Below are positions 562-36,621 of a stretch of DNA of 64,000 bases, piece by piece. The position numbers and the translations under genes are program-made. Below the pieces are notes generated by a model that worked only from the letters and a program-made list of their open reading frames with translations, had not been told where the DNA came from and did not search any database. Origin of the DNA: Acidobacteria bacterium 28-1 (GTDB lineage: Bacteria > Acidobacteriota > Blastocatellia > Pyrinomonadales > Pyrinomonadaceae); assembly GCA_002050365.1 (NCBI GenBank), contig MWYZ01000038.1, forward strand, positions 1 through 64,000, in the 5' to 3' direction. The stretch's first letter is position 1, and every line of letters starts with the position of its first letter.

Positions 562-2679
562 CTATATTTTTTTTGGGGGAATGGAAAAGATAAGCCTGAA
601 TTCTGACGGATTGAAAGCGGCGATGATGCTGGCGCGGCGAATACCGAGTGGCAAATCATTTTGAAAACTTCCCAAATCAAAAGCCGTTTCAAAATCTTTC
701 CAACGACGATTGAGCAAACGGTATATTTCCTCTTCCGAAAACTGCCAGTCGGTTTCGGAAAACGCTCCCGCTATTTCGACAAAAAACTCATTGTGTTCAA
801 CGATTATCAGGTTCCTTTCCGTTTCCAACAGTTCGCCCAACGCTTTGCCGTAGACTTCGCCCGCGTTGTGAAACAGCAAAAATCTCTTTTCCGAATCGTT
901 TTCCGTTTGAACAGACACTAGCGGCATCGCGCCCGTTTCATCGGCAGCAGGAAAGCATAATTCGTTTGCCAACGCTTTGGTCAACGCGGCGGATTTGACG
1001 CGCCAATTCCATTTTTGATGCGGTTGGCGGACGTTTTCCGTCTTTGTTTCGGCGCGGGTCAGGATTTTGCGCCCGTTTGTCGAAGTTACGCGGCGGGCGT
1101 GTCCGCCCATCAGAAAAGTGCTTCCGGCGGGCAATTTGGAATCGAGAAACCCGACGCGCCTGCCGGTCATATCGTCAATCACGACCGCCCTTTCATTTGT
1201 TCCCGACATATTGCTGTAAAGCGCGCGTTCTTCGTAAAGTTTTTCCCAGATTTCGCCGGCTTGCAACTGTTTTCCGCCGCGCATTGCCGGTCGGAAAAAG
1301 TCTTTTTCAATCAGATGCTCGACGATTTTTTCGTATTGATGTTTGTCTATCAACGGTTCGCCGTTGGGCGTGATGAAAAGTCCGAAAGCGTGTTCGGGGT
1401 TGAGTTCGCTGTGCGTCGTTTGTTTCAAATAAGAGCAAAGCTGCTGGACGACAACCGACGGGCGAAACGCCAAGCCGTTGTCCGATGCGAGCAGCGCAGA
1501 CGTTTCCGCACTGGAATTTTTGGCGGCGCGAATAAAAACTTGAAAAACGGCTTCTTCGGTCGGCGTTCGATAAAAACAGGCGACGCGGGTGCGCCTTGTG
1601 CGGCGATTACCGCGCCCGATGCGTTGGAGAAACGAGCCTAAATTGTCCGGTGCGCCGACGAGCAAAATTAAATCAACGTCGCCGATGTCAATTCCGAGTT
1701 CGAGCGTCGAAGTGGCGAAACACAAAGCCGCGCCGGTGCGGGCGAAATTTTCTTCCGCTTGACGGCGGATATTCGCGCTCAAATTGGCGTGATGAACCAA
1801 AACTTCATCGCCGAAGGGCGCACTGCCGCGCAGTAAATTTACCCACTCTTCACATTCCGCCCGTTTTTGACAAAAAGCCAAAACTTTTTTTACCTCACGC
1901 GCTTTGAACGTCGCAAAAAATTCGCGCAAAGATTCCGCGCCGCGCATCTCGAAAAGTTTCGCGTCAATTTCGCGCTGCCCGTCGGTTTGAATTAAAACAG
2001 GATTGGCAAAGTATTTGGCGGCGATGCTCGCGGGATTGTGCATCGTCGCCGACAGAGCGCAAAACTGAACTTCAGCGGTCGCCGCATCGCCTTTTGTAAA
2101 AGCATATTCACGAAGCCGCCGCAGGCGATTGAGCAAAATCCGCAGTTGGTCGCCGCGCGGCGTGTTGTCGTAAAGATGCAGTTCGTCCAAAACGACGGCG
2201 GACACGTCGCGCAGCATCTTCGGGCGATTTGCCAGCAGTGAATCAAGCGATTCGGGCGTGGTGATGAGAAATTCCGGCGGGCGCGTCGGTTTCAAGGCGG
2301 GTTCGTCGCCCGTTTTGACCGCCAAGCTGATTGCCATCTTTTTTAACGGCTGTTCGATGCGCCGCGCAATATCTCTCGCTAAAGCCCGCGTCGGCACAAG
2401 ATACAAAAATTTGACGGTTGCAGTTTGTTTTTGTGAATTGGTTTTGAATCGCCGCTGTTGAAAGCGTTCGAGAATCGGAGCTAAAGCCGCTTCGGTTTTG
2501 CCGCTCGCCGTCGCCGCCGCCAAAACGCAATTTTCCCCGCTCAACAACGGCTCAAGCGCAAGTTCCTGAATCGCGGTCAAGCGTCCGAAACGCGACAAAA
2601 AAGCGTCGAATGTATGCGACAGTTTTTCGATTGCAGATTTTGGATTTCGGATTTCGGATTTTATATTTCCGTTGTGCAT
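562..2679 (-). CDS. Lhr-like DEAD/DEAH-box SF2 helicase (BrxHI-like)
   Basis: Translation has ATASGKTEAALAP (motif I), VLDELHLYD (motif II), CALSATM (motif III), QRIGRGNRRTRRTR (motif VI). The first ~18 aa come from a low-complexity repeat, so the true start may be internal. Confidence 0.85.
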   Translation of the reverse strand: MHNGNIKSEIRNPKSAIEKLSHTFDAFLSRFGRLTAIQELALEPLLSGENCVLAAATASGKTEAALAPILERFQQRRFKTNSQKQTATVKFLYLVPTRALARDIARRIEQPLKKMAISLAVKTGDEPALKPTRPPEFLITTPESLDSLLANRPKMLRDVSAVVLDELHLYDNTPRGDQLRILLNRLRRLREYAFTKGDAATAEVQFCALSATMHNPASIAAKYFANPVLIQTDGQREIDAKLFEMRGAESLREFFATFKAREVKKVLAFCQKRAECEEWVNLLRGSAPFGDEVLVHHANLSANIRRQAEENFARTGAALCFATSTLELGIDIGDVDLILLVGAPDNLGSFLQRIGRGNRRTRRTRVACFYRTPTEEAVFQVFIRAAKNSSAETSALLASDNGLAFRPSVVVQQLCSYLKQTTHSELNPEHAFGLFITPNGEPLIDKHQYEKIVEHLIEKDFFRPAMRGGKQLQAGEIWEKLYEERALYSNMSGTNERAVVIDDMTGRRVGFLDSKLPAGSTFLMGGHARRVTSTNGRKILTRAETKTENVRQPHQKWNWRVKSAALTKALANELCFPAADETGAMPLVSVQTENDSEKRFLLFHNAGEVYGKALGELLETERNLIIVEHNEFFVEIAGAFSETDWQFSEEEIYRLLNRRWKDFETAFDLGSFQNDLPLGIRRASIIAAFNPSEFRLIFSIPPKKI

Positions 2680-2690
2680 TAGCGTTTAAT

Positions 2691-3167
2691 CTATAATTGT
2701 TTTCCAAAAGCATCAATCAGACATTCAAAAAATTCGATGGGCGAAGCAATCCGCAAGTTTATTGTTTCGGCTACTTTGTCGGTAAAATGGTCGCGGTTTT
2801 TCGTGATTATCCAATCCGGTTGGCTGTCAATCGCCGCTAAGATAACCGGCACATCCGAAGCGTGCCGGATGAGGTGGCGGTTTTGCTTTATCCGTTCTTT
2901 ATCTGTTAAAGGAACGCGCATTGGACGGGCTAATTTGATAAAGCCTTGATAGTCGGCAATTAAAGATTCTGTTTGTTTCTCACCGAATCTGTCAATAAAT
3001 TTTAACAAATTATGCTTTACTTCCAGTCGCACGATTTCCGGCAAAACGAGACGACAGGTTTTGGCGGCACACAAAGCTAAAACGGCTTTGCTTTGCCCGA
3101 ATCGGCTGACCAGTCCATCTGTAATAACATTACTGTCGGTAAGAAGCTTAGGCGCGAAAGTGTTCAT
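2691..3167 (-). CDS. PIN-domain ribonuclease toxin
   Basis: LLTDSNVITDGL N-terminal acidic motif, conserved internal E, C-terminal DWIITKNRDHF; abuts an AbrB-like gene. Confidence 0.75.
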   Translation of the reverse strand: MNTFAPKLLTDSNVITDGLVSRFGQSKAVLALCAAKTCRLVLPEIVRLEVKHNLLKFIDRFGEKQTESLIADYQGFIKLARPMRVPLTDKERIKQNRHLIRHASDVPVILAAIDSQPDWIITKNRDHFTDKVAETINLRIASPIEFFECLIDAFGKQL

Positions 3168-3497
3168 TTACAGTTCGGACTCGTTTTCAGCCAAATCGGG
3201 ATAATGTTCGCGGAAAACCTCGCGGCGCGTTTCCGGCAGAGTGTTGAGTAATTCCTCAGTTCTAACCCCGGCTTTTTGCAATGTCTGTTCAATCCGTTCG
3301 CAAAGCGCGTTGAATTTCTCCATCTCCGGCAACAACAAAAGACTGTTGCCGATTTTTAAGATGGCAATCGGTGAACCGGCTTCCAAACTTTGTTCATCCC
3401 GAAATTCTTTTGGCAAAACAAGCTGTCCCTTCTCGGATAACCTTCCGGTCATCAGATATTGAACAAAGTTCATTTCATTTTTGACATTTGTGTTCAT
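3168..3497 (-). CDS. AbrB/MazE-family antitoxin-like protein
   Basis: GRLSEKGQLVLPKEFRDEQSLEAGSPIAILKIGNSLLLLP matches a SpoVT-AbrB pattern; directly upstream of the PIN gene. Confidence 0.75.
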   Translation of the reverse strand: MNTNVKNEMNFVQYLMTGRLSEKGQLVLPKEFRDEQSLEAGSPIAILKIGNSLLLLPEMEKFNALCERIEQTLQKAGVRTEELLNTLPETRREVFREHYPDLAENESEL

Positions 3498-3630
3498 TTT
3501 TAATCTCCTAGTAGTAATTTCCTACGCAAATAATCTTATAATACTTTTGTAGAAAAAACAATCTTTGTAGAGTTTCTAAACCAAACCCTAAATTACTTTG
3601 GGTATGCTGTCCAAAATTCTCTAACATCAA

Positions 3631-5040
3631 TCACAATAACGCCCGCCGTAGTTCGGCGACGGCTTGGCTGGCGTTGAAATCTTTATGCGCGTAGCAGAGG
3701 TCGAATATCTCAACTGACAGGCGTATGACCTGGCGGAGATTTATCAAATTGTTGTCAAGGCATTCCAGCAAACCTTGCGCGACATCGAGAAATTGCCCGT
3801 TGTTATCGTAGTTGTAAGATTGGCGATGCAGTACGTAAAGCCGCGTCATCAGTTCGTCAAGTGCGGCGGGCGGCAGGTATTTTTTTAATTGTAAAATTTG
3901 TCCTTCGTCCAGGGTGCGCTGGTAATCGAAAGTGTTTGCCGACGGCGTAACGGCGAAAAGCAACAGCAAATGGCTGTTGTCTTTGAGCCGGAACGGGTGC
4001 GAATGATATTGATGCTGTAAATCGTTTTCGCCGATTCGCCCATTTTCGCCGAGCGCGGTGTAAATCAGAGCCTTGAAAAAATTGTCGGCGCGTTCCTGCC
4101 CGCGTTGGTTGAGCAGGCTGTAATGTTCGGATTCGTCAATAAAAACAGCGAGTCCGGCGTAGCCCGCCTGCGTAGCCAGCCAGCCCCAGCCGTTGAGTAA
4201 ATAACAATATTGGTCGGCGGCGGTGGTCAATTGCGAGAGCGATTTTATCTTGAATTCTTTGCTCTTAAACGCGGCATTTCGGCGCACGTCGCTGATGAAA
4301 ACTTTTTCGCCCGACATCCAATCAACCAACTCATCCAAAGCGTTATCCGGCGTGTCGCGCATCAGCAAATAATTATGCAGAGCCGTGGCAAAAAATGTTT
4401 CTCTGATGCTGTCCTGAATTTCGGAATAATTCGGCTGGGCGATGATTTTTTCAAGTAACGGCGTGAGTCCGACTTCCGCCGAATCGGGAAAACGCAGCGA
4501 ACGCATCAAGGAGAGATAAATGCGTTGCGGACGATTCGGCGGGACTTCGCGCAAGTCCAGACTTGTCGTGGCGATGATAAAATTATTCGCCAGAGCCTCT
4601 TGCGCCGCCAATTCGAAAAAATGACTTTTGCCCGCGCCGTATTCGCCCAACACGACGCGCACATCTCCACCGTGTTCTTTCGTATTCGCAAACGCACGCT
4701 GCAAACTCTCTTTTTCATCATCAAGTCTGACACTCAATTCGCGGATGCGTTTCGCTGGAACAAGCCCGTAACGCAAGGCTTCAATCGTCCGCCGCGCTTC
4801 AATTCGTCCGGCTTCTTCGGGCGTGAACGTCTTTTCCGGGCGCGGAGCGATAAAAGATTTCGGCGCGGACGGCGTTTCAGTTTCGGCGGTTTGCAAAACC
4901 GACAGCATCCCGCTCGGCACAACCGCCCGGATGCCGTTATCAAAACGCACGACCGAATCGCGTCCGGCGTTGCGTAATTCCAACACCTGCCCGCGCCCGA
5001 AAAGCGGATGATTTACAATTGCTCCAATCATATTTTCCAA
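3631..5040 (-). CDS. BrxC/BrxD-like (DUF2791-like) P-loop ATPase with N-terminal Tudor-like segment
   Basis: Walker A VLGEYGAGKSHFFEL, Walker B GLAVFIDESEHYS; N-terminus IVNHPLFGRGQVLELRNAGRDSVVRFDNGIRAVVPSGMLSVL. Confidence 0.75.
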   Translation of the reverse strand: MENMIGAIVNHPLFGRGQVLELRNAGRDSVVRFDNGIRAVVPSGMLSVLQTAETETPSAPKSFIAPRPEKTFTPEEAGRIEARRTIEALRYGLVPAKRIRELSVRLDDEKESLQRAFANTKEHGGDVRVVLGEYGAGKSHFFELAAQEALANNFIIATTSLDLREVPPNRPQRIYLSLMRSLRFPDSAEVGLTPLLEKIIAQPNYSEIQDSIRETFFATALHNYLLMRDTPDNALDELVDWMSGEKVFISDVRRNAAFKSKEFKIKSLSQLTTAADQYCYLLNGWGWLATQAGYAGLAVFIDESEHYSLLNQRGQERADNFFKALIYTALGENGRIGENDLQHQYHSHPFRLKDNSHLLLLFAVTPSANTFDYQRTLDEGQILQLKKYLPPAALDELMTRLYVLHRQSYNYDNNGQFLDVAQGLLECLDNNLINLRQVIRLSVEIFDLCYAHKDFNASQAVAELRRALL

Positions 5041-5250
5041 ACTGCGAAAATCTCCTTATTAATAATTTCGAGCGAATCCGGTGCTAAATATTCAACCACT
5101 TCGGACGCCCGCCCCTGAAAGGGACGAATTTAACGGCAATTGTTCGACGCTTTCAGCGTCGGATTGAATTTTTCAACCTGACGACGGGTTGCACCCGTCG
5201 CTATCAAATCTGTCCGCTTCGCGGACTTTTAAGTAAATCTCCACAATTTC

Positions 5251-6534
5251 TTAATATTCGCCTGTTTCCGTTCGTCCGAGTTGTTCCGTAACATCGCGCA
5301 GAACGCCGTTGAGATTGTCTTCTTCGTAAATGTGTTCGCCCGAAACACGCTGTTCGGTCAGCATTGTTACCAACGATTTTACAAAATGGCGGCGATGACT
5401 GGTCGAAAGCAAAGACGCGCATCCGGCGGCGAGCGCGGCGATATTTTCGCGCTGCAATTCGTGATTGAAATTCATCTGGTAAGCCGTTTCATAAACGCCT
5501 AAAAGTTTTTCGCCGATTAAGCGCAGCAATTCTTCGCCCGGATAATCGAGATGGTCGAGGCTGATTTGGACGCTGAACGGATTTTGGCGCGAAAACTTAA
5601 CCTTTGAACTGATGCGCTGGCTTAACGCTTCGTAATTCGGAGCGATATTTGTTACGAAATAAGGCGGCACGGCATAGACAAAAAGTGCGGACGGCAGACT
5701 TTCACCGGCGCAGCGGTCAATTACTTCGCGCAGATTGTCGCAGGCGACTTTTTCCGTGCGCGACGAGCCGATGCTGACCATTCGGTCGCCTTCGTCAAAC
5801 AGCAAAACCAAACCCGCGTAACCGAGTTCGTGAACCGCTTGCGCCAGCGATCGCATCATCTTAAACGCGACCGTTTTATCGAGTTTTTCCGTGATGCTGA
5901 ACGCCCGCACATCTTTCAAAGCAACACTCTCGCCGCGCAGCCAAGCTCCAATCAGACGTTTATTTGCCTCGTTTTCTTCGGCGACAGCGCGAAAATAATA
6001 ATAAATCGCGTGGCGAAACGAAGGACTTTCGATGTTGAAACGCAAAACCGTGTCGAGCCACAAATTAACGCGCACATCCAGACCGACGCTTGTTTTCGGG
6101 TTTTCCACGCCGAGTGTTTTCAAAGTTTGAAAAAAATGATTTTCTAGAAATGCTTCCAGCCCGCTGGTGTCCGCGCTGTCCGCATTCGGCGAATGATAAA
6201 TCAGATTGCCCGCGACGGCTTGATAGACTTTCAGTTGATTATCGTAAGGACATTCTTTCGGGCTGAGTTCGGTGCGGCTGACAACGTAACCGAGTTCCCA
6301 AGCCAAATCACGCAGGCGATAAAGAAAATGCGATTTACCGCTTCCGTATTCGCCGACAACCAGCTTAAAACTCGAACCGCCGTCGCGCAGATAGCCGCCT
6401 AAATATTCATCTTTCAGCGTCCCCAAAATCGAATCAATCCCGACCGTGTAAGCCTCTAAATTGCGGGCGGGCGGAATGCCCGATTCGCCGAGTTTGCGGA
6501 TAATATGCTGCGCTTCGGTCTGCGTCAAAGCCAT
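5251..6534 (-). CDS. BrxC/BrxD-like (DUF2791-like) P-loop ATPase
   Basis: Walker A VVGEYGSGKSHFLYRLRDLA, Walker B GLVLLFDEGDRM. Start set to MALTQTEAQ because an AAGGAGA-type RBS precedes 6534; the track ORF extends to 6624. Confidence 0.77.
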   Translation of the reverse strand: MALTQTEAQHIIRKLGESGIPPARNLEAYTVGIDSILGTLKDEYLGGYLRDGGSSFKLVVGEYGSGKSHFLYRLRDLAWELGYVVSRTELSPKECPYDNQLKVYQAVAGNLIYHSPNADSADTSGLEAFLENHFFQTLKTLGVENPKTSVGLDVRVNLWLDTVLRFNIESPSFRHAIYYYFRAVAEENEANKRLIGAWLRGESVALKDVRAFSITEKLDKTVAFKMMRSLAQAVHELGYAGLVLLFDEGDRMVSIGSSRTEKVACDNLREVIDRCAGESLPSALFVYAVPPYFVTNIAPNYEALSQRISSKVKFSRQNPFSVQISLDHLDYPGEELLRLIGEKLLGVYETAYQMNFNHELQRENIAALAAGCASLLSTSHRRHFVKSLVTMLTEQRVSGEHIYEEDNLNGVLRDVTEQLGRTETGEY

Positions 6535-6689
6535 TTTTGATTCTCCTTGATATTTATCCACGAAATTACACGAAGGTTTTACGAAGGTTTTTTGAAATTT
6601 CCAAATCTGATAAAACCATTTCAATTCTGATTTTCAAACAAGAAAATGTTTAATTATCTTTTCTTCGTGTAACTTCGTGGATAAATATC

Positions 6690-7559
6690 TTACTTTTCTT
6701 TCGTAAAATATAAATGCTGGATAAACTGTCCTTCGTTTGCGTCCGTCGCCAAAAACATCGCGCGGGCTGAATCGCTGCCGACATCAATCGTCGCCGTGCC
6801 TAAATTCAAGCGATGACCTTGATACATCATATTTTGTGAACGGCGCAGTTGCATCATATCGTGAGCAAAATGCGTCTTCGGGTAATCGGTAAATTTCTGT
6901 TTCGACGGCGTTTTACGAAACGAAGCGGGCTGCCGAACCATAATCAATTCACGATAGCAATCAACAATTATCGTACGCGTTCCCACCGGTTTATCCGACA
7001 ATTTTAAAACGCGGTTGTAAGCCTCGAACAACTCGCCGAGCAGCGCGTTCAAATCAACATTGCGCTCGCAGATTTCGCGGCGGGCGCGTTCATATGCGGA
7101 AACGACCTGCTCGACATTCAGCTTGATTTTTTTGTCCGTTACCGGCTGCCGCGAAAAAGTCATATCAACCTGTTTGCGCCGCATATCAACTTTTATAATG
7201 AACAATTCGGCAATCAATTCGGACGCGGAACTGCCGCCGAGAGCGATACCTTTTTCGCCGAACGCTTCGCGCAAATCTCTGGCAAAAGTGAATTCCAATT
7301 CAGAGAGATTTTCATCCGCAGTTTCTTTGAGTTTTTCGATTAACGATTGATAGTCGCCCGGCAGTTCCAATTCAGATGGCGGCGTCTCCAAAACGACACA
7401 CGCCTCAGCCAAAGCGACGGCGTTTTTATGCGGGTCTTTTAACGCTCGAACGGCGTTTTCCAAAGGCTTGATGACATTGTTTCGGAGCTTAACTTCGCCC
7501 GCTAAAATTTTGCGAACTTCGCTCAAATCCACACTCAAAATTTCCGTGTTTTCACTCAT
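6690..7559 (-). CDS. Uncharacterised helical protein, first gene of the ATPase/helicase cluster
   Basis: 289-aa ORF co-directional with the ATPase genes; no family recognised by eye. Confidence 0.75.
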   Translation of the reverse strand: MSENTEILSVDLSEVRKILAGEVKLRNNVIKPLENAVRALKDPHKNAVALAEACVVLETPPSELELPGDYQSLIEKLKETADENLSELEFTFARDLREAFGEKGIALGGSSASELIAELFIIKVDMRRKQVDMTFSRQPVTDKKIKLNVEQVVSAYERARREICERNVDLNALLGELFEAYNRVLKLSDKPVGTRTIIVDCYRELIMVRQPASFRKTPSKQKFTDYPKTHFAHDMMQLRRSQNMMYQGHRLNLGTATIDVGSDSARAMFLATDANEGQFIQHLYFTKEK

Positions 7560-31765: not shown

Positions 31766-32821
31766 TTAGACTGCTTTTGCGAACTTTCTGTTTTCCATTT
31801 TCTTAATGGCATCCGCTTTATAACTTTCCGACGGGTGAGCATACCGGGAAATTGTCTTTAATCCGCTATGACCTAGAATCTGCGACAAGGTAAGCAAATC
31901 AACTCCATTCTCGACGGCACGGCTGGCGAATGTATGACGGCAATCGTAAAGCCGGAAATTCATCTTCAATCGCTCCATTGTCCGAATGTGCATCTTGTCT
32001 ATCGTTTCGGTTGCAGCGCGGAAATCTTCGTCGTTTTGCGGAAATAAGTTTTCACCTTTGAATCTTTGCAGACGACCTTTAAGAACCGCGCTTGCCTTTG
32101 CGGAAAGATGAACTTGCCTCAAACTCGCTTTTGTTTTGCCCTTTGTAATTTTCAAAAAACCTTGATTAAGAAAAACTTCGCTTCGTTTTATTCGATAAAT
32201 TTCACCGCATCGCATACCACTTTGAAGCATTAAAATTGCCACGTCTTGAAGCGGCTGCGGAGCTGCAAGCAAGTAAACCTTTTCTTCGTCGTCTGTTAAA
32301 ACGTGAAAATCCGCGTCATTCTCTTTTAACAGCTTGACGTTTTGCGCTGGATTATTACGCAAGACATCTTCATTTACCAACCTTTTGAAAATCTTCTTTA
32401 GCGTAATCAATTCACGGTTGACCGTGCCGCGTGTGATTTTGTCCTTTGTCTTTCTCGACGTTTGACCGCTTCGCCAAACGACGAACTTTTCAACGTCTTT
32501 CGCTTCGATTGCATCCGTTTTCTTTTTTCCGAAAAATTCAGTCAAAACTTGAACCGCGAACCGCTCGCGCCGTTCGGTTGTCTGTTCGGCGTGGCTAACC
32601 ATTGACCACTTGAGAAAATCACTCGCGGCGGCGGCGAATGTCGGCGCATCTTTCTTCGGCTTGATGCCGATGCGCCCTAACGCTAATTCGTGCCGGAAAG
32701 CCGCTTCAATCGTCAAAGCATCGCGCTTATTCGAGCATTTTGTTGATTGCTGGACAAGCGAGCCGTCAAAGGTGAATTTCATCCAAAAAAACTTTGAATT
32801 TTCGCGTTTATATAAACTCAT
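31766..32821 (-). CDS. Tyrosine recombinase/integrase
   Basis: Catalytic motifs SGMRCGEIYR, RLYDCRHTFASRA, LGHSGLKTISRYAH. Confidence 0.95.
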   Translation of the reverse strand: MSLYKRENSKFFWMKFTFDGSLVQQSTKCSNKRDALTIEAAFRHELALGRIGIKPKKDAPTFAAAASDFLKWSMVSHAEQTTERRERFAVQVLTEFFGKKKTDAIEAKDVEKFVVWRSGQTSRKTKDKITRGTVNRELITLKKIFKRLVNEDVLRNNPAQNVKLLKENDADFHVLTDDEEKVYLLAAPQPLQDVAILMLQSGMRCGEIYRIKRSEVFLNQGFLKITKGKTKASLRQVHLSAKASAVLKGRLQRFKGENLFPQNDEDFRAATETIDKMHIRTMERLKMNFRLYDCRHTFASRAVENGVDLLTLSQILGHSGLKTISRYAHPSESYKADAIKKMENRKFAKAV

Positions 32822-33581
32822 TATTTTTGCTCCTTTTTGTAGACTTTGCTGTTCCTTCTTTTATAAGTTCCCGGTTTGCTTCGCGCTTGGCTTTTCTTTC
32901 GGCTTTTTCTTCCGGCGTTAAATTGCGATAACGGCGCGTTCTTAAAATGCCAAAACACGGAGCAGAGCAAGTTTTTGATTCTTCGCGTTTTGCCCAAAAG
33001 ACGCGATTGCAAATCTCACAGGCTCGCAGCCTATCAAGATTTATAGTGCTGATTAATTCTAAAAAAACCGGGAGACTTGCTCTAAATTCACCGTCTTTTT
33101 CTGTAATTGGAATCGAAATTTCCAAGCTAGGTTTGTGCCAGGAAGAGTTTTCTGTTTTTTTCTTTTTTTCAGACACCCTGTCAATCACTAATTTAATATT
33201 TTTGCGTGTTTGGTAAATTTCTTCGTAAGTGATAATTACAGCGTCCAATAAAGCCTTGTATCGCCGCCTATCTAAATCGTTGTTCGACTCCGCCGACTTA
33301 TTAAACCAACAGTTGAATATATTTGTTTTGGCTTCTCTGTCGAAGTCTTTGAAACATTCATCAAAAATATCAGACCACAAATCTACGTCAGTTTTTTGTT
33401 CTTGTAACAACCATTCATTGGTGAATGCTTCTATCACCTTGCCCGCGTTAGGCATATCAGCATCAGGCGGAACTAAATTAACCATTTTAAGAATAGCAGC
33501 CAGTTCTGGCAGACATTTATACTTTGCCCTTGATTTCTTTTCCGTTTGTTGCAAGCCTTCACTCTTTTTCTTTTTAGGCAT
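32808..33581 (-). CDS. Hypothetical protein with C-terminal CGNR-like zinc finger
   Basis: RLRACEICNRVFWAKREESKTCSAPCFGILRTRRYRNLTPEEKA. Confidence 0.6.
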   Translation of the reverse strand: MPKKKKSEGLQQTEKKSRAKYKCLPELAAILKMVNLVPPDADMPNAGKVIEAFTNEWLLQEQKTDVDLWSDIFDECFKDFDREAKTNIFNCWFNKSAESNNDLDRRRYKALLDAVIITYEEIYQTRKNIKLVIDRVSEKKKKTENSSWHKPSLEISIPITEKDGEFRASLPVFLELISTINLDRLRACEICNRVFWAKREESKTCSAPCFGILRTRRYRNLTPEEKAERKAKREANRELIKEGTAKSTKRSKNNEFI

Positions 33582-33768
33582 ATTTTTGAAACCGTGTAAC
33601 GCTTAATTGCTACATTGTGTTTATTAAAAGTTACATTTCCTATAACGCTTACTCGACATTTTTTGCTTGATAAATTAAAACAAGTTTTTTGTTGCAAATA
33701 GCACACTAGATAACGTAGCATAGCCTTAACTTGTTAGCAAGTAAAAGTAACACAAGGAGTGAAATAAA

Positions 33769-34002
33769 ATGAATTTGAATGTTATGGAGAGAAACCAAAT
33801 GACGCAATCAAACGTTACAAATAATAAATTTGCGTATTCAGTTGAAGAAATCAGCGAACAAACCACGCTTTCAAAAGCCTTTCTGCGAAACGAGATTCGC
33901 GCCGGACATTTAAAAGCAAATCGTTTCGGACGGCGTGTTTTAGTGCTGTCTGAAAATTTACAGAATTATTTAAAAAAAGGAGAAATCGAAGATGCAAAAT
34001 GA
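33769..34002 (+). CDS. Excisionase-family helix-turn-helix protein
   Basis: FAYSVEEISEQTTLSKAFLRNEIRAGHLKANRFGRRVLVLSENLQNYL. Confidence 0.75.
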   Translation: MNLNVMERNQMTQSNVTNNKFAYSVEEISEQTTLSKAFLRNEIRAGHLKANRFGRRVLVLSENLQNYLKKGEIEDAK

Positions 34003-34264
34003 AAAAGCCGTCGCGACAAACAACGGCTTCAATAAAATAAACAAACAATTAACTATGACAAATTCTACACAAAAAACAGAAATAAAGCAATCGAAATTAA
34101 ACTTCGGCAATCCGCCGGAAATAATAATTTGTTTTGCTTGCCATCGCGAAAGGGAATTTGACGGATACATTTTCCGTCTCGTTCGCGTGTGCGCCGATTG
34201 CCGAACCGAAAGCGAGGTTTTGATAACCCGAAAACGATTTGAGCGGCGGAGGGCAAGCAAATGA
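33992..34264 (+). CDS. Small zinc-ribbon-like hypothetical protein
   Basis: ICFACHREREFDGYIFRLVRVCADCRTE; overlaps neighbours in a tight gene string. Confidence 0.5.
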   Translation: MQNEKAVATNNGFNKINKQLTMTNSTQKTEIKQSKLNFGNPPEIIICFACHREREFDGYIFRLVRVCADCRTESEVLITRKRFERRRASK

Positions 34265-36621
34265 ATCAAATTTTAGAACACGCAAGAAAATATCATCGGC
34301 GAGGCTGGCAGCCTTTGCCAATCGCTTACGGCTCAAAAAACCCGAACTTTTCCGGCTGGCAGAAATTTCAAACCACCGAAGCGGATTTGCCTAACCATTT
34401 CAACGTCGCGGCTCAAAACATTGGAGTTTTGCTGCACAACGGCTTGACGGATGTTGATTTGGACTCGCCTGAAGCGGTCAAGATTGCCGATTACTTTTTA
34501 CCGCCGACCGACGCTGTTTTCGGACGCGCAAGCAAAATGCGTTCGCATCGAATTTTCAAATGCAAAGGCGCGGCGTTTGAGAAATTCAATAATCCGTTTC
34601 TTGTAAGTTCTAAAGACGAGAAGGAACGAAAAAACGCTTGCATTGTCGAGATTCGCACGGGCAACGGACTGCAAACAGTCTTTCCCGGCTCGACGCACTC
34701 AAGCGGCGAAGTTGTCGAATGGCACACGGACGGCGAACCGCTTCAAGTTGACGCTCAAAACTTGCGCCGGGCGGTTGCTCTGATGGCTTCAGCGTGCCTT
34801 ATTTCCACGTTTTGGCGCGGTGGTGTGCGGCAAGATTTAACAATGGCGGTGGGCGGTGCATTACTGCGAAACGGCTTTGATGTGCCGCAGGTGAAAAAAT
34901 TTATCAAAGCAATTTGTTTTGCGGCAAGCGATGAAGAAACCGCCGACCGATTGAAAGCAGTGGACGCAACGGCGCAAAAATTAAAGAGCGGTAAAAATGT
35001 TTACGGCTTTCCCAAACTTGCCGAATTGACGGACAACAAACTTGTTGAAAACGTTTGTAAATGGCTTCAAATTGAAAGCAGACAAGACGGCGAACCCGTT
35101 CACCAAACCGACGCGCCCGCCGAATTTACAGGCGAACCGAAACCGCTCGATTTAACTTTGAAACCAGTTGAACCGCTTGACGATGATTGCCTGCCGAAAG
35201 TGCTTGTTGATTGGTTGAGACCAGCTTCAAAAGTTATCGGATGTCCGTTTGATTTTCTCGTTTTATCGGCGGTGATTATGGTTGGGAGTATTATCGGCTC
35301 ACGGCTTCGCGTGAAACCTTTGCGCCATTCGGATTGGTTTGTAGTTCCTAACCTTTACGGCGGATGCGTCGGTTTGCCGTCCACAAAGAAAACGCCCGCG
35401 CTCGACGAAACTCGCAAACCGATTTTGGAATTACAGGCGAAAGCCCGTAAAGAGTTTTCGGATAAAATAAAAGATTTTGTGATTGAAGCGAAATGTTACG
35501 AACGGGATACAGCCGCAGTTTATAAAGAAAAACTAGGATTGACGGAAACAAAAGGGAAAATCAATTCGTTGACCGAACCCAACACGCCTGTTTTGAAGCG
35601 TTACGAAACCAACGATATAACCACGCCGAAGCTCGCGCAATTTCTTTCCGAAAATCCGATTGGTTTATTACAAAACCGCGATGAATTAGTTGGTTGGTTT
35701 AAATCGCTTGAAGCAGATTACGACCTCAACGCCCGGTCATTTATTTTGGAAGTTTGGAAAGGCGCGATTGCTTACGAACTGGCTAGAGTTGGAAACGGTG
35801 AAATTCAAATCACATCGGGAACGCTTTCGATTATCGGCGGAATTCAACCGTCAAAGCTGCAACGATACATCTCGGAAGCCTACTCATTCGACAATTCGGA
35901 CGGCTTGCCGCAGCGTTTTTTGTTCGCATACCCCGACACAAGCAAACGAAGCGAAAAGCCGACACAACCCGATTATGACGCAATGAGAGACGGCTATTCG
36001 GCGGTGAATCGGTTATGCAAAAAACTTGCCGAATTTGATTTTAGCGGAAAAGTAATCGGCGCGAATGGTGACATATTTCAAATCGTCAAATTTAACGCCG
36101 AAGCTCAAGCCGTAGTTGACGAATGGCAAGCCGACACGGAAGCCGAAGCCGAAACCCTGCAAGTTGAAGATGAAGCATTTTCGGCATATCTCTACAAAAT
36201 GCCGAAAAGCTGCTTTGCCATCGCTTTAATTTTCCACTGTCTTGAACATATCAACGATGCCGCGTTCCCGGACGAAATGACAATCGAAACCACTTTGCGA
36301 GCGATTGCTTACACGGAAATTTTAATCACACACGCCCGGCGTGTTTTTGCGCTCGGCGAAAATCAAATCTTTTCTTTGGCGCAAATCCTAATCGGCAAAA
36401 TCAAAAAAGGCGAACTTGAGCAAGGTTTTACCGCTTACGAAATCAAACGTAAGCAGTGGAGCGGACTGAAAACGCCTGACACGATAAAAGACGTTATCGT
36501 TTTGTTAATTGATTACGGCTATTTGCTGGAATTGCCGACAAGCGGCGAACCCGGCAGACCAACAATAAAATACGCCTTTCATCCTTCATTGGAAACGGAG
36601 AAAAAAGATGAAGTGGAATAA
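34261..36621 (+). CDS. Prim-Pol (bifunctional primase/polymerase N-terminal) plus DUF3987-like replication protein
   Basis: N-terminus RRGWQPLPIAYGSKNPNFSGWQKF...NIGVLLHNGLTDVDLDSPEA; C-terminal region NIYGG/PSTKKTP, RDELVGWFKSL, LSIIGGIQPSKL typical of DUF3987. Confidence 0.85.
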   Translation: MNQILEHARKYHRRGWQPLPIAYGSKNPNFSGWQKFQTTEADLPNHFNVAAQNIGVLLHNGLTDVDLDSPEAVKIADYFLPPTDAVFGRASKMRSHRIFKCKGAAFEKFNNPFLVSSKDEKERKNACIVEIRTGNGLQTVFPGSTHSSGEVVEWHTDGEPLQVDAQNLRRAVALMASACLISTFWRGGVRQDLTMAVGGALLRNGFDVPQVKKFIKAICFAASDEETADRLKAVDATAQKLKSGKNVYGFPKLAELTDNKLVENVCKWLQIESRQDGEPVHQTDAPAEFTGEPKPLDLTLKPVEPLDDDCLPKVLVDWLRPASKVIGCPFDFLVLSAVIMVGSIIGSRLRVKPLRHSDWFVVPNLYGGCVGLPSTKKTPALDETRKPILELQAKARKEFSDKIKDFVIEAKCYERDTAAVYKEKLGLTETKGKINSLTEPNTPVLKRYETNDITTPKLAQFLSENPIGLLQNRDELVGWFKSLEADYDLNARSFILEVWKGAIAYELARVGNGEIQITSGTLSIIGGIQPSKLQRYISEAYSFDNSDGLPQRFLFAYPDTSKRSEKPTQPDYDAMRDGYSAVNRLCKKLAEFDFSGKVIGANGDIFQIVKFNAEAQAVVDEWQADTEAEAETLQVEDEAFSAYLYKMPKSCFAIALIFHCLEHINDAAFPDEMTIETTLRAIAYTEILITHARRVFALGENQIFSLAQILIGKIKKGELEQGFTAYEIKRKQWSGLKTPDTIKDVIVLLIDYGYLLELPTSGEPGRPTIKYAFHPSLETEKKDEVE

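Follow-up and report, generated by a model that had tools for sequence, protein, structure and literature searches.

A conserved four-gene set of two PF10923 ATPases, an Lhr/BrxHI-type helicase and an orphan protein as a possible third lineage of BrxD-BrxHI-type partnership

The window considered here is a 64,000-nucleotide stretch of DNA from Acidobacteria bacterium 28-1 (contig MWYZ01000038.1, positions 1 to 64,000), whose minus-strand genes at 562-7559 encode a 289-amino-acid (aa) orphan protein, two ATPases of PF10923 and a helicase of the Lhr/BrxHI type. These four genes apparently form a conserved and undescribed system, and no published description of the set was found among open-licence papers on PF10923, BrxD or Shango. 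At about an even chance of being right, we read them as encoding one multisubunit, ATP-driven DNA-remodelling machine with a role that leans to maintenance. It would be a third, unnamed lineage of BrxD-BrxHI-type ATPase-helicase partnership, the other two being those of type-2 bacteriophage exclusion (BREX) and of Shango. The features of the module are the following:

6690..7559, minus strand: orphan subunit of 289 aa that opens the operon, with no family match in Pfam, NCBIfam or PADLOC
5251..6534, minus strand: ATPase A, 427 aa, AAA+ protein of PF10923 (BrxC_BrxD), with Walker A GEYGSGKSH and Walker B LLFDEGD
3631..5031, minus strand: ATPase B, 466 aa, a putative N-terminal Tudor-like beta-barrel and then a PF10923 AAA+ domain, with GEYGAGKSH and FIDESE
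4891..5031, minus strand: putative Tudor domain, residues 1-47 of ATPase B (VNHPLFGRGQVLELRNAGRDSVVRFDNGIRAVVPSGMLSVL), suggested by conservation, model and weak profile matches
562..2679, minus strand: superfamily 2 (SF2) BrxHI/SngC/Lhr-like helicase of 705 aa, final gene of the operon, with DELH and QRIGRGNRR

An earlier reading, made from the sequence only, had named these genes with their coordinates and motifs (GEYGSGKSH/LVLLFDEGD and GEYGAGKSH/LAVFIDESE in the ATPases, DELH and QRIGRGNRR in the helicase), and all of them are present. In alignments, ATPase A starts at ATG 6534, the TTG at 6624 being over-extended and unconserved among relatives, and the start of ATPase B is corrected to ATG 5031, which gives the length of 466 aa.

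The sequence-only reading also took the orphan, the two ATPases and the helicase to be a fixed set, and this is borne out across several phyla. The order orphan-ATPase A-ATPase B-helicase was read in the neighbourhoods of 30 contiguous loci, comprising the window, eight genomes of its class, four divergent genomes of its phylum, the acidobacteriotal locus L062, 14 genomes of the Stahlbacteria phylum and two plasmids. Among 145 relatives, 16 carry the orphan (14 of the 66 genera of relatives), as do 14 of 396 genomes of Acidobacteriota, and for the window's class presence is put at 13 of 162 genomes; homologues also occur in WOR-3/Stahlbacteria, with distant ones on two plasmids. The ATPase A profile matches 40 of the 120 genomes sampled from the phylum of Candidatus Stahlbacteria, and many of the genomes surveyed are incomplete metagenome-assembled genomes. 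Among 200 genomes of Pseudomonadota, the best match to ATPase A reached 91 bits, compared with more than 300 in true members. One candidate locus, L061, was dropped from the family, its match being weak (E 1.6e-9) and its genome lacking any PF10923 gene. A diverged subtype II contains the same four genes without the Tudor-like domain and is carried by plasmid3 of Aulosira laxa, by pDESTI.01 of Desulfomonile tiedjei and by L062; its orphans are homologous to that of the window (hhalign 97.8%, E 8.8e-13).

The four genes keep company even when they are not adjacent. ATPase A is present in 13 of the 14 orphan-bearing genomes of the window's class, and the contig of the fourteenth stops inside the orphan. 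In all six cases in which no helicase lies beside the ATPases, it is encoded elsewhere in the same genome (E<=1e-123), and these unlinked helicases fall within the module helicase clade in the tree; in one of the six (G542), adjacency cannot be judged because the contig of the ATPases ends within ATPase B. The orphan, in turn, lies apart from the ATPase pair yet in the same genome in G141, G532 and G518, and a search of two genomes picked for weak ATPase matches (G546 and G597) found no orphan. Moreover, the pairwise distances of the four proteins correlate over 25 loci (Mantel r 0.89-0.98), and the tree of ATPase A mirrors that of ATPase B.

That the module holds two different DUF2791 ATPases, as had been supposed from their motifs, is confirmed by scores against PF10923 (formerly DUF2791) of 161 bits for ATPase A and 105 bits for ATPase B, the curated cut-off being 22.2. 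The two are mutually homologous (hhalign 99.8%), their Walker A and Walker B residues are conserved, and those of ATPase B are invariant in 29 sequences. ATPase A scores 123.5 against the PADLOC model of BrxD and 103 against that of SngB, and on the NCBIfam BrxD equivalog (NF033438, cut-off 350) the ATPases reach only 124.5 and 76.5 bits. In the tree, ATPase A and ATPase B form their own clades, separate from BrxD and SngB. The helicase, with DEAD and Helicase_C as its only Pfam domains, scores 235 bits against the PADLOC model of BrxHI and 211 against that of SngC, and in the tree the sister group of the module's own helicase clade is BrxHI plus SngC. No nuclease or methylase domain was recognised in the four proteins.

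Structure prediction, which the sequence-only reading had envisaged for these proteins, was informative for ATPase B and gave no fold match for the orphan. The AlphaFold2 (AF2) model of ATPase B (predicted local distance difference test, pLDDT, 86.7) has the fold of an ORC/Cdc6-type AAA+ protein, with best matches in the PDB to ORC/Cdc6 (E 7.5e-5) and other AAA+ proteins close behind. The protein begins with a conserved VxHPxFGxGxV...VxF segment, modelled as a five-strand barrel, in which P9, G12 and G14 are invariant and H8, R20, V28 and F30 are kept in 27-28 of 29 sequences. This barrel is probably a Tudor domain like that of PcrA/UvrD, judging from the model and from profile matches to PF21196 PcrA_UvrD_tudor (E 0.02-0.03, 15 bits, below the cut-off of 23.9); other sub-threshold matches, which agree with it, are to the CarD/TRCF domain (CarD RID, E 0.06) and to the UvrD Tudor structure 7egt (E 0.03).

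The orphan is modelled with confidence (pLDDT 93.8, predicted template modelling score 0.82) as a long N-terminal helical hairpin (residues 2-40 and 70-102) followed by a small beta-sheet (107-135), and searches with this model found no significant match in the PDB or among the viral structures of BFVD. At its C-terminal end (residues 170-287), the predicted helix-strand arrangement is compatible with a winged helix. An enzymatic role for the orphan is disfavoured because its conserved residues are almost all hydrophobic, glycine or aromatic, and it was rejected, the alignment containing no conserved set of Asp, Glu, His, Lys or Cys. A SngA/TerB-like identity was likewise rejected, with an hhalign probability of 0.4% against SngA and a negative TerB_N search of the window genome.

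A mechanism can be proposed by analogy with related machines. In type-2 BREX, the BrxD ATPase and the BrxHI helicase form a tight dyad in which BrxD is proposed to load BrxHI (PMC12839542), and the Tudor domain of PcrA/UvrD docks on RNA polymerase and UvrB (PMC8318588). ATPases A and B, both of ORC/Cdc6-like AAA+ type and with their Walker motifs intact, could thus come together around DNA, where they would load the Lhr/BrxHI-type helicase or gate it. Positioning of the complex on DNA might fall to the orphan, with its coiled-coil and winged-helix-like end, and docking on a partner to the Tudor-like domain of ATPase B; in the manner of PcrA/UvrD, that partner could be RNA polymerase or some other protein bound to DNA. 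The helicase would then translocate and strip or unwind nucleoprotein without cutting it.

For the window-type lineage, we lean slightly towards a dispensable chromosomal role in genome maintenance, with defence against invaders as a close second. The more specific proposal, that the window-type module is a resident and non-immune chromosomal machine of DNA maintenance, in which an AAA+-loaded, Tudor-docked helicase clears nucleoprotein roadblocks, is tentative and clearly short of an even chance. In eight Stahlbacteria genomes, the module stands beside the same glycosyltransferase and epimerase genes, even though identity between these neighbours falls to about 50%. Module distances track those of three neighbours (r 0.80-0.97); a fourth gives r 0.43-0.53, its match in three genomes being a paralogue. 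The Stahlbacteria operon is inherited vertically at a fixed locus.

Several points weigh against a single complex devoted to maintenance. The Mantel and tree tests attest co-inheritance rather than physical contact, and complex formation, helicase loading and substrate would rest on analogy. The Tudor assignment is sub-threshold, and hence weak, by sequence, and the winged-helix-like end of the orphan is a reading of predicted secondary structure that the fold searches do not support. Furthermore, the patchy distribution in Acidobacteriota fits defence at least as well as maintenance, and so does the plasmid-borne, BREX-linked subtype.

The strongest rival, which falls not far below an even chance, is innate defence against phages and plasmids. 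The orphan and the Tudor-like domain would recognise invading nucleoprotein, ATPases A and B would load the helicase, and the helicase would destroy or silence replication intermediates of the invader, with the host or accompanying toxin-antitoxin pairs providing a nuclease or toxin. The nearest relatives of the ATPases and the helicase are defence components, and the helicases SngC, BrxHI, DruE and DpdJ form a defence-associated clade (PMC12278908). The best evidence tying the module to defence is the setting of subtype II: in Aulosira, it comes immediately after a complete type-2 BREX on a conjugative plasmid, and this BREX has a BrxD and a BrxHI of its own; in L062, it is near a DndH/HerA-like gene; and pDESTI.01 also bears an AbiEii toxin pair. 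The patchiness just mentioned, the toxin-antitoxin pairs that the operon holds in three genera, and the methylase, Mrr and Fic genes that adjoin the module in two Stahlbacteria genomes point the same way. Nevertheless, the defence function put forward in the sequence-only reading is left unsupported for the window-type module. Among the matches listed for 104 acidobacteriotal and 121 Stahlbacteria neighbours of chromosomal modules, PADLOC families are few and mostly generic, and no clear excess of defence genes emerges from this qualitative comparison, which had 39 window proteins as its control. No copy of the window-type orphan turned up among 72,556 plasmids, and ATPase A was found in no phage record and, with narrow search patterns, in no IMG/VR contig. 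The vertically inherited Stahlbacteria locus, the scattering of module components over the chromosome in several genomes and the lack of a recognised nuclease domain also argue against defence.

Far less probable is that the module is a minimal or degenerate type-2 BREX or Shango that has lost its other parts. It does combine a PF10923 ATPase with a BrxHI/SngC-like helicase, and NCBI names the Desulfomonile ATPases 'BREX system ATP-binding domain-containing'. However, both ATPases fall far under the BrxD equivalog cut-off, both of them and the helicase lie in clades apart from BrxD/BrxHI and SngB/SngC, the orphan is not SngA, and Aulosira has the module alongside a complete BREX. Searches of the window genome (G000) found no PglZ (PF08665) and no TerB_N, and its only PF10923 genes are A and B, so that it has no BrxC of the PF10923 family; nor was any BREX component seen among the 39 other window proteins. 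Because PglZ, TerB_N and further PF10923 genes are lacking, the module is neither BREX nor Shango. The suggestion that the set is self-contained holds in this genome. Stand-alone PglZ-domain proteins of 505-547 aa do occur in all eight Stahlbacteria-phylum genomes searched for them (L118-L120 and others). As a link to BREX they were rejected, since they stand alone and, in G507 and G575, where the distance can be compared on contigs, lie hundreds of kb from the module; they may be PorX-like.

A chance neighbourhood of unrelated genes has practically no probability left: the AbrB/PIN pair in mid-operon is indeed such an insertion, but cross-phylum gene order, unlinked co-occurrence and distance co-variation rule chance out for the four-gene set. 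The remaining features of the operon are as follows:

3168..3497, minus strand: AbrB/MazE-type antitoxin gene between ATPase B and the helicase (Pfam MazE 24.6, cut-off 24.7)
2691..3167, minus strand: PIN-domain toxin gene, paired with the AbrB gene (PF13470, above cut-off)
6549..6689, no strand: 27-nt inverted repeat spanning the gap between the orphan and ATPase A, with arms 6549-6575 and 6663-6689 that are 96% complementary

The AbrB/PIN pair, which the sequence-only reading had listed among the co-directional genes, was rejected as a part of the system, being found in the window alone among the loci compared; it is a local insertion outside the conserved module. At the ATPase B-helicase junction, three genera of a single family have three unrelated co-directional pairs of toxin-antitoxin type, namely AbrB/PIN (window 2691-3497), a small gene with a PIN toxin (L018 5306-6017) and TacA with a GNAT toxin (L020 9074-9935); this junction is empty in other members. 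Other genes accompany the module in Stahlbacteria. In G542, the orphan and ATPase A are separated by a Fic protein and a generic methyltransferase. In G483, the stretch from the orphan to the contig end is taken up by a DNA N6/N4 methylase, and on a different contig an Mrr domain lies ahead of ATPase A; the two (L088:5678-6052 and L067:3604-4491) are possibly one MTase-Mrr gene split between contigs. The earlier claim that the system does not rely on DNA modification stands for the window lineage and is tempered by this one Stahlbacteria locus.

Some variants were also observed. In L063 (5528-10243), the helicase and a strongly diverged orphan flank three PF10923 ATPases, and the genome also contains a TerB_N protein and further PF10923 genes. 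In L029 (9523-10387), a truncated orphan (1-167) is joined to a truncated ATPase A (337-457), through a deletion or an assembly join, beside intact ATPase B and helicase genes. In one divergent family, both genomes encode a SEC-C motif protein immediately after the helicase (L030:3424-5205, 593 aa; L058:1877-3625, 582 aa). Elsewhere in the window, translations judged by eye suggest a possible small integrated element (31766-36621), with genes resembling those of a phage-type integrase (31766-32821) and a primase/polymerase (34261-36621).

If the module is a maintenance machine, the ATPase-helicase pairs of type-2 BREX and Shango, systems of common ancestry with it, would have a cellular cousin, whose normal substrate would explain how BrxD and BrxHI act. 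A helicase clade held to be 'defined by antiphage functions' (PMC12278908) would then have a cellular branch. If it is immune, it would represent an unlisted defence system in about one third of the sampled genomes of a whole phylum. For the tasks of BrxD/BrxHI and SngB/SngC, the four-part relative could offer a simpler experimental system for learning how a BrxD-type ATPase acts on a BrxHI-type helicase, with no recognised nuclease or methylase, a distinct subunit of unmatched fold and a stable chromosomal home.

Among known systems, the BrxD-BrxHI pair of type-2 BREX resembles the module in that a PF10923 AAA+ protein adjoins a BrxHI/Lhr-like SF2 helicase. The module differs in having two different ATPases, one of them with a putative N-terminal Tudor-like domain, and its own orphan, in lacking PglW, PglX, PglY and PglZ, and in its separate clades. 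DUF2791 ATPases were reportedly described by Anantharaman and colleagues in 2012 in Ter-linked neighbourhoods, where the ATPase and an SF2 helicase share one operon as in the module; unlike these, the window genome contains no TerB_N domain. The likeness to the PcrA/UvrD Tudor domain lies in the VxHPxFGxGxV..VxF pattern with which ATPase B opens and in weak profile matches, but the former domain is C-terminal on a superfamily 1 helicase, whereas that of ATPase B would be N-terminal on an AAA+ protein, and its match is sub-threshold. Shango combines a single ATPase and a single helicase with a TerB protein (PMC10250203), and its SngABC operons (L109 and L113) share with the module an ATPase, a SngC-type helicase and a third protein in three to four genes. 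Unlike the module, Shango has one ATPase only and its own clades and is typically located on plasmids or in hotspots, and its SngA is a large TerB_N-type protein that is not homologous to the orphan. By analogy, the module would work like the BrxD-BrxHI or the SngB-SngC pair, yet belongs to neither system.

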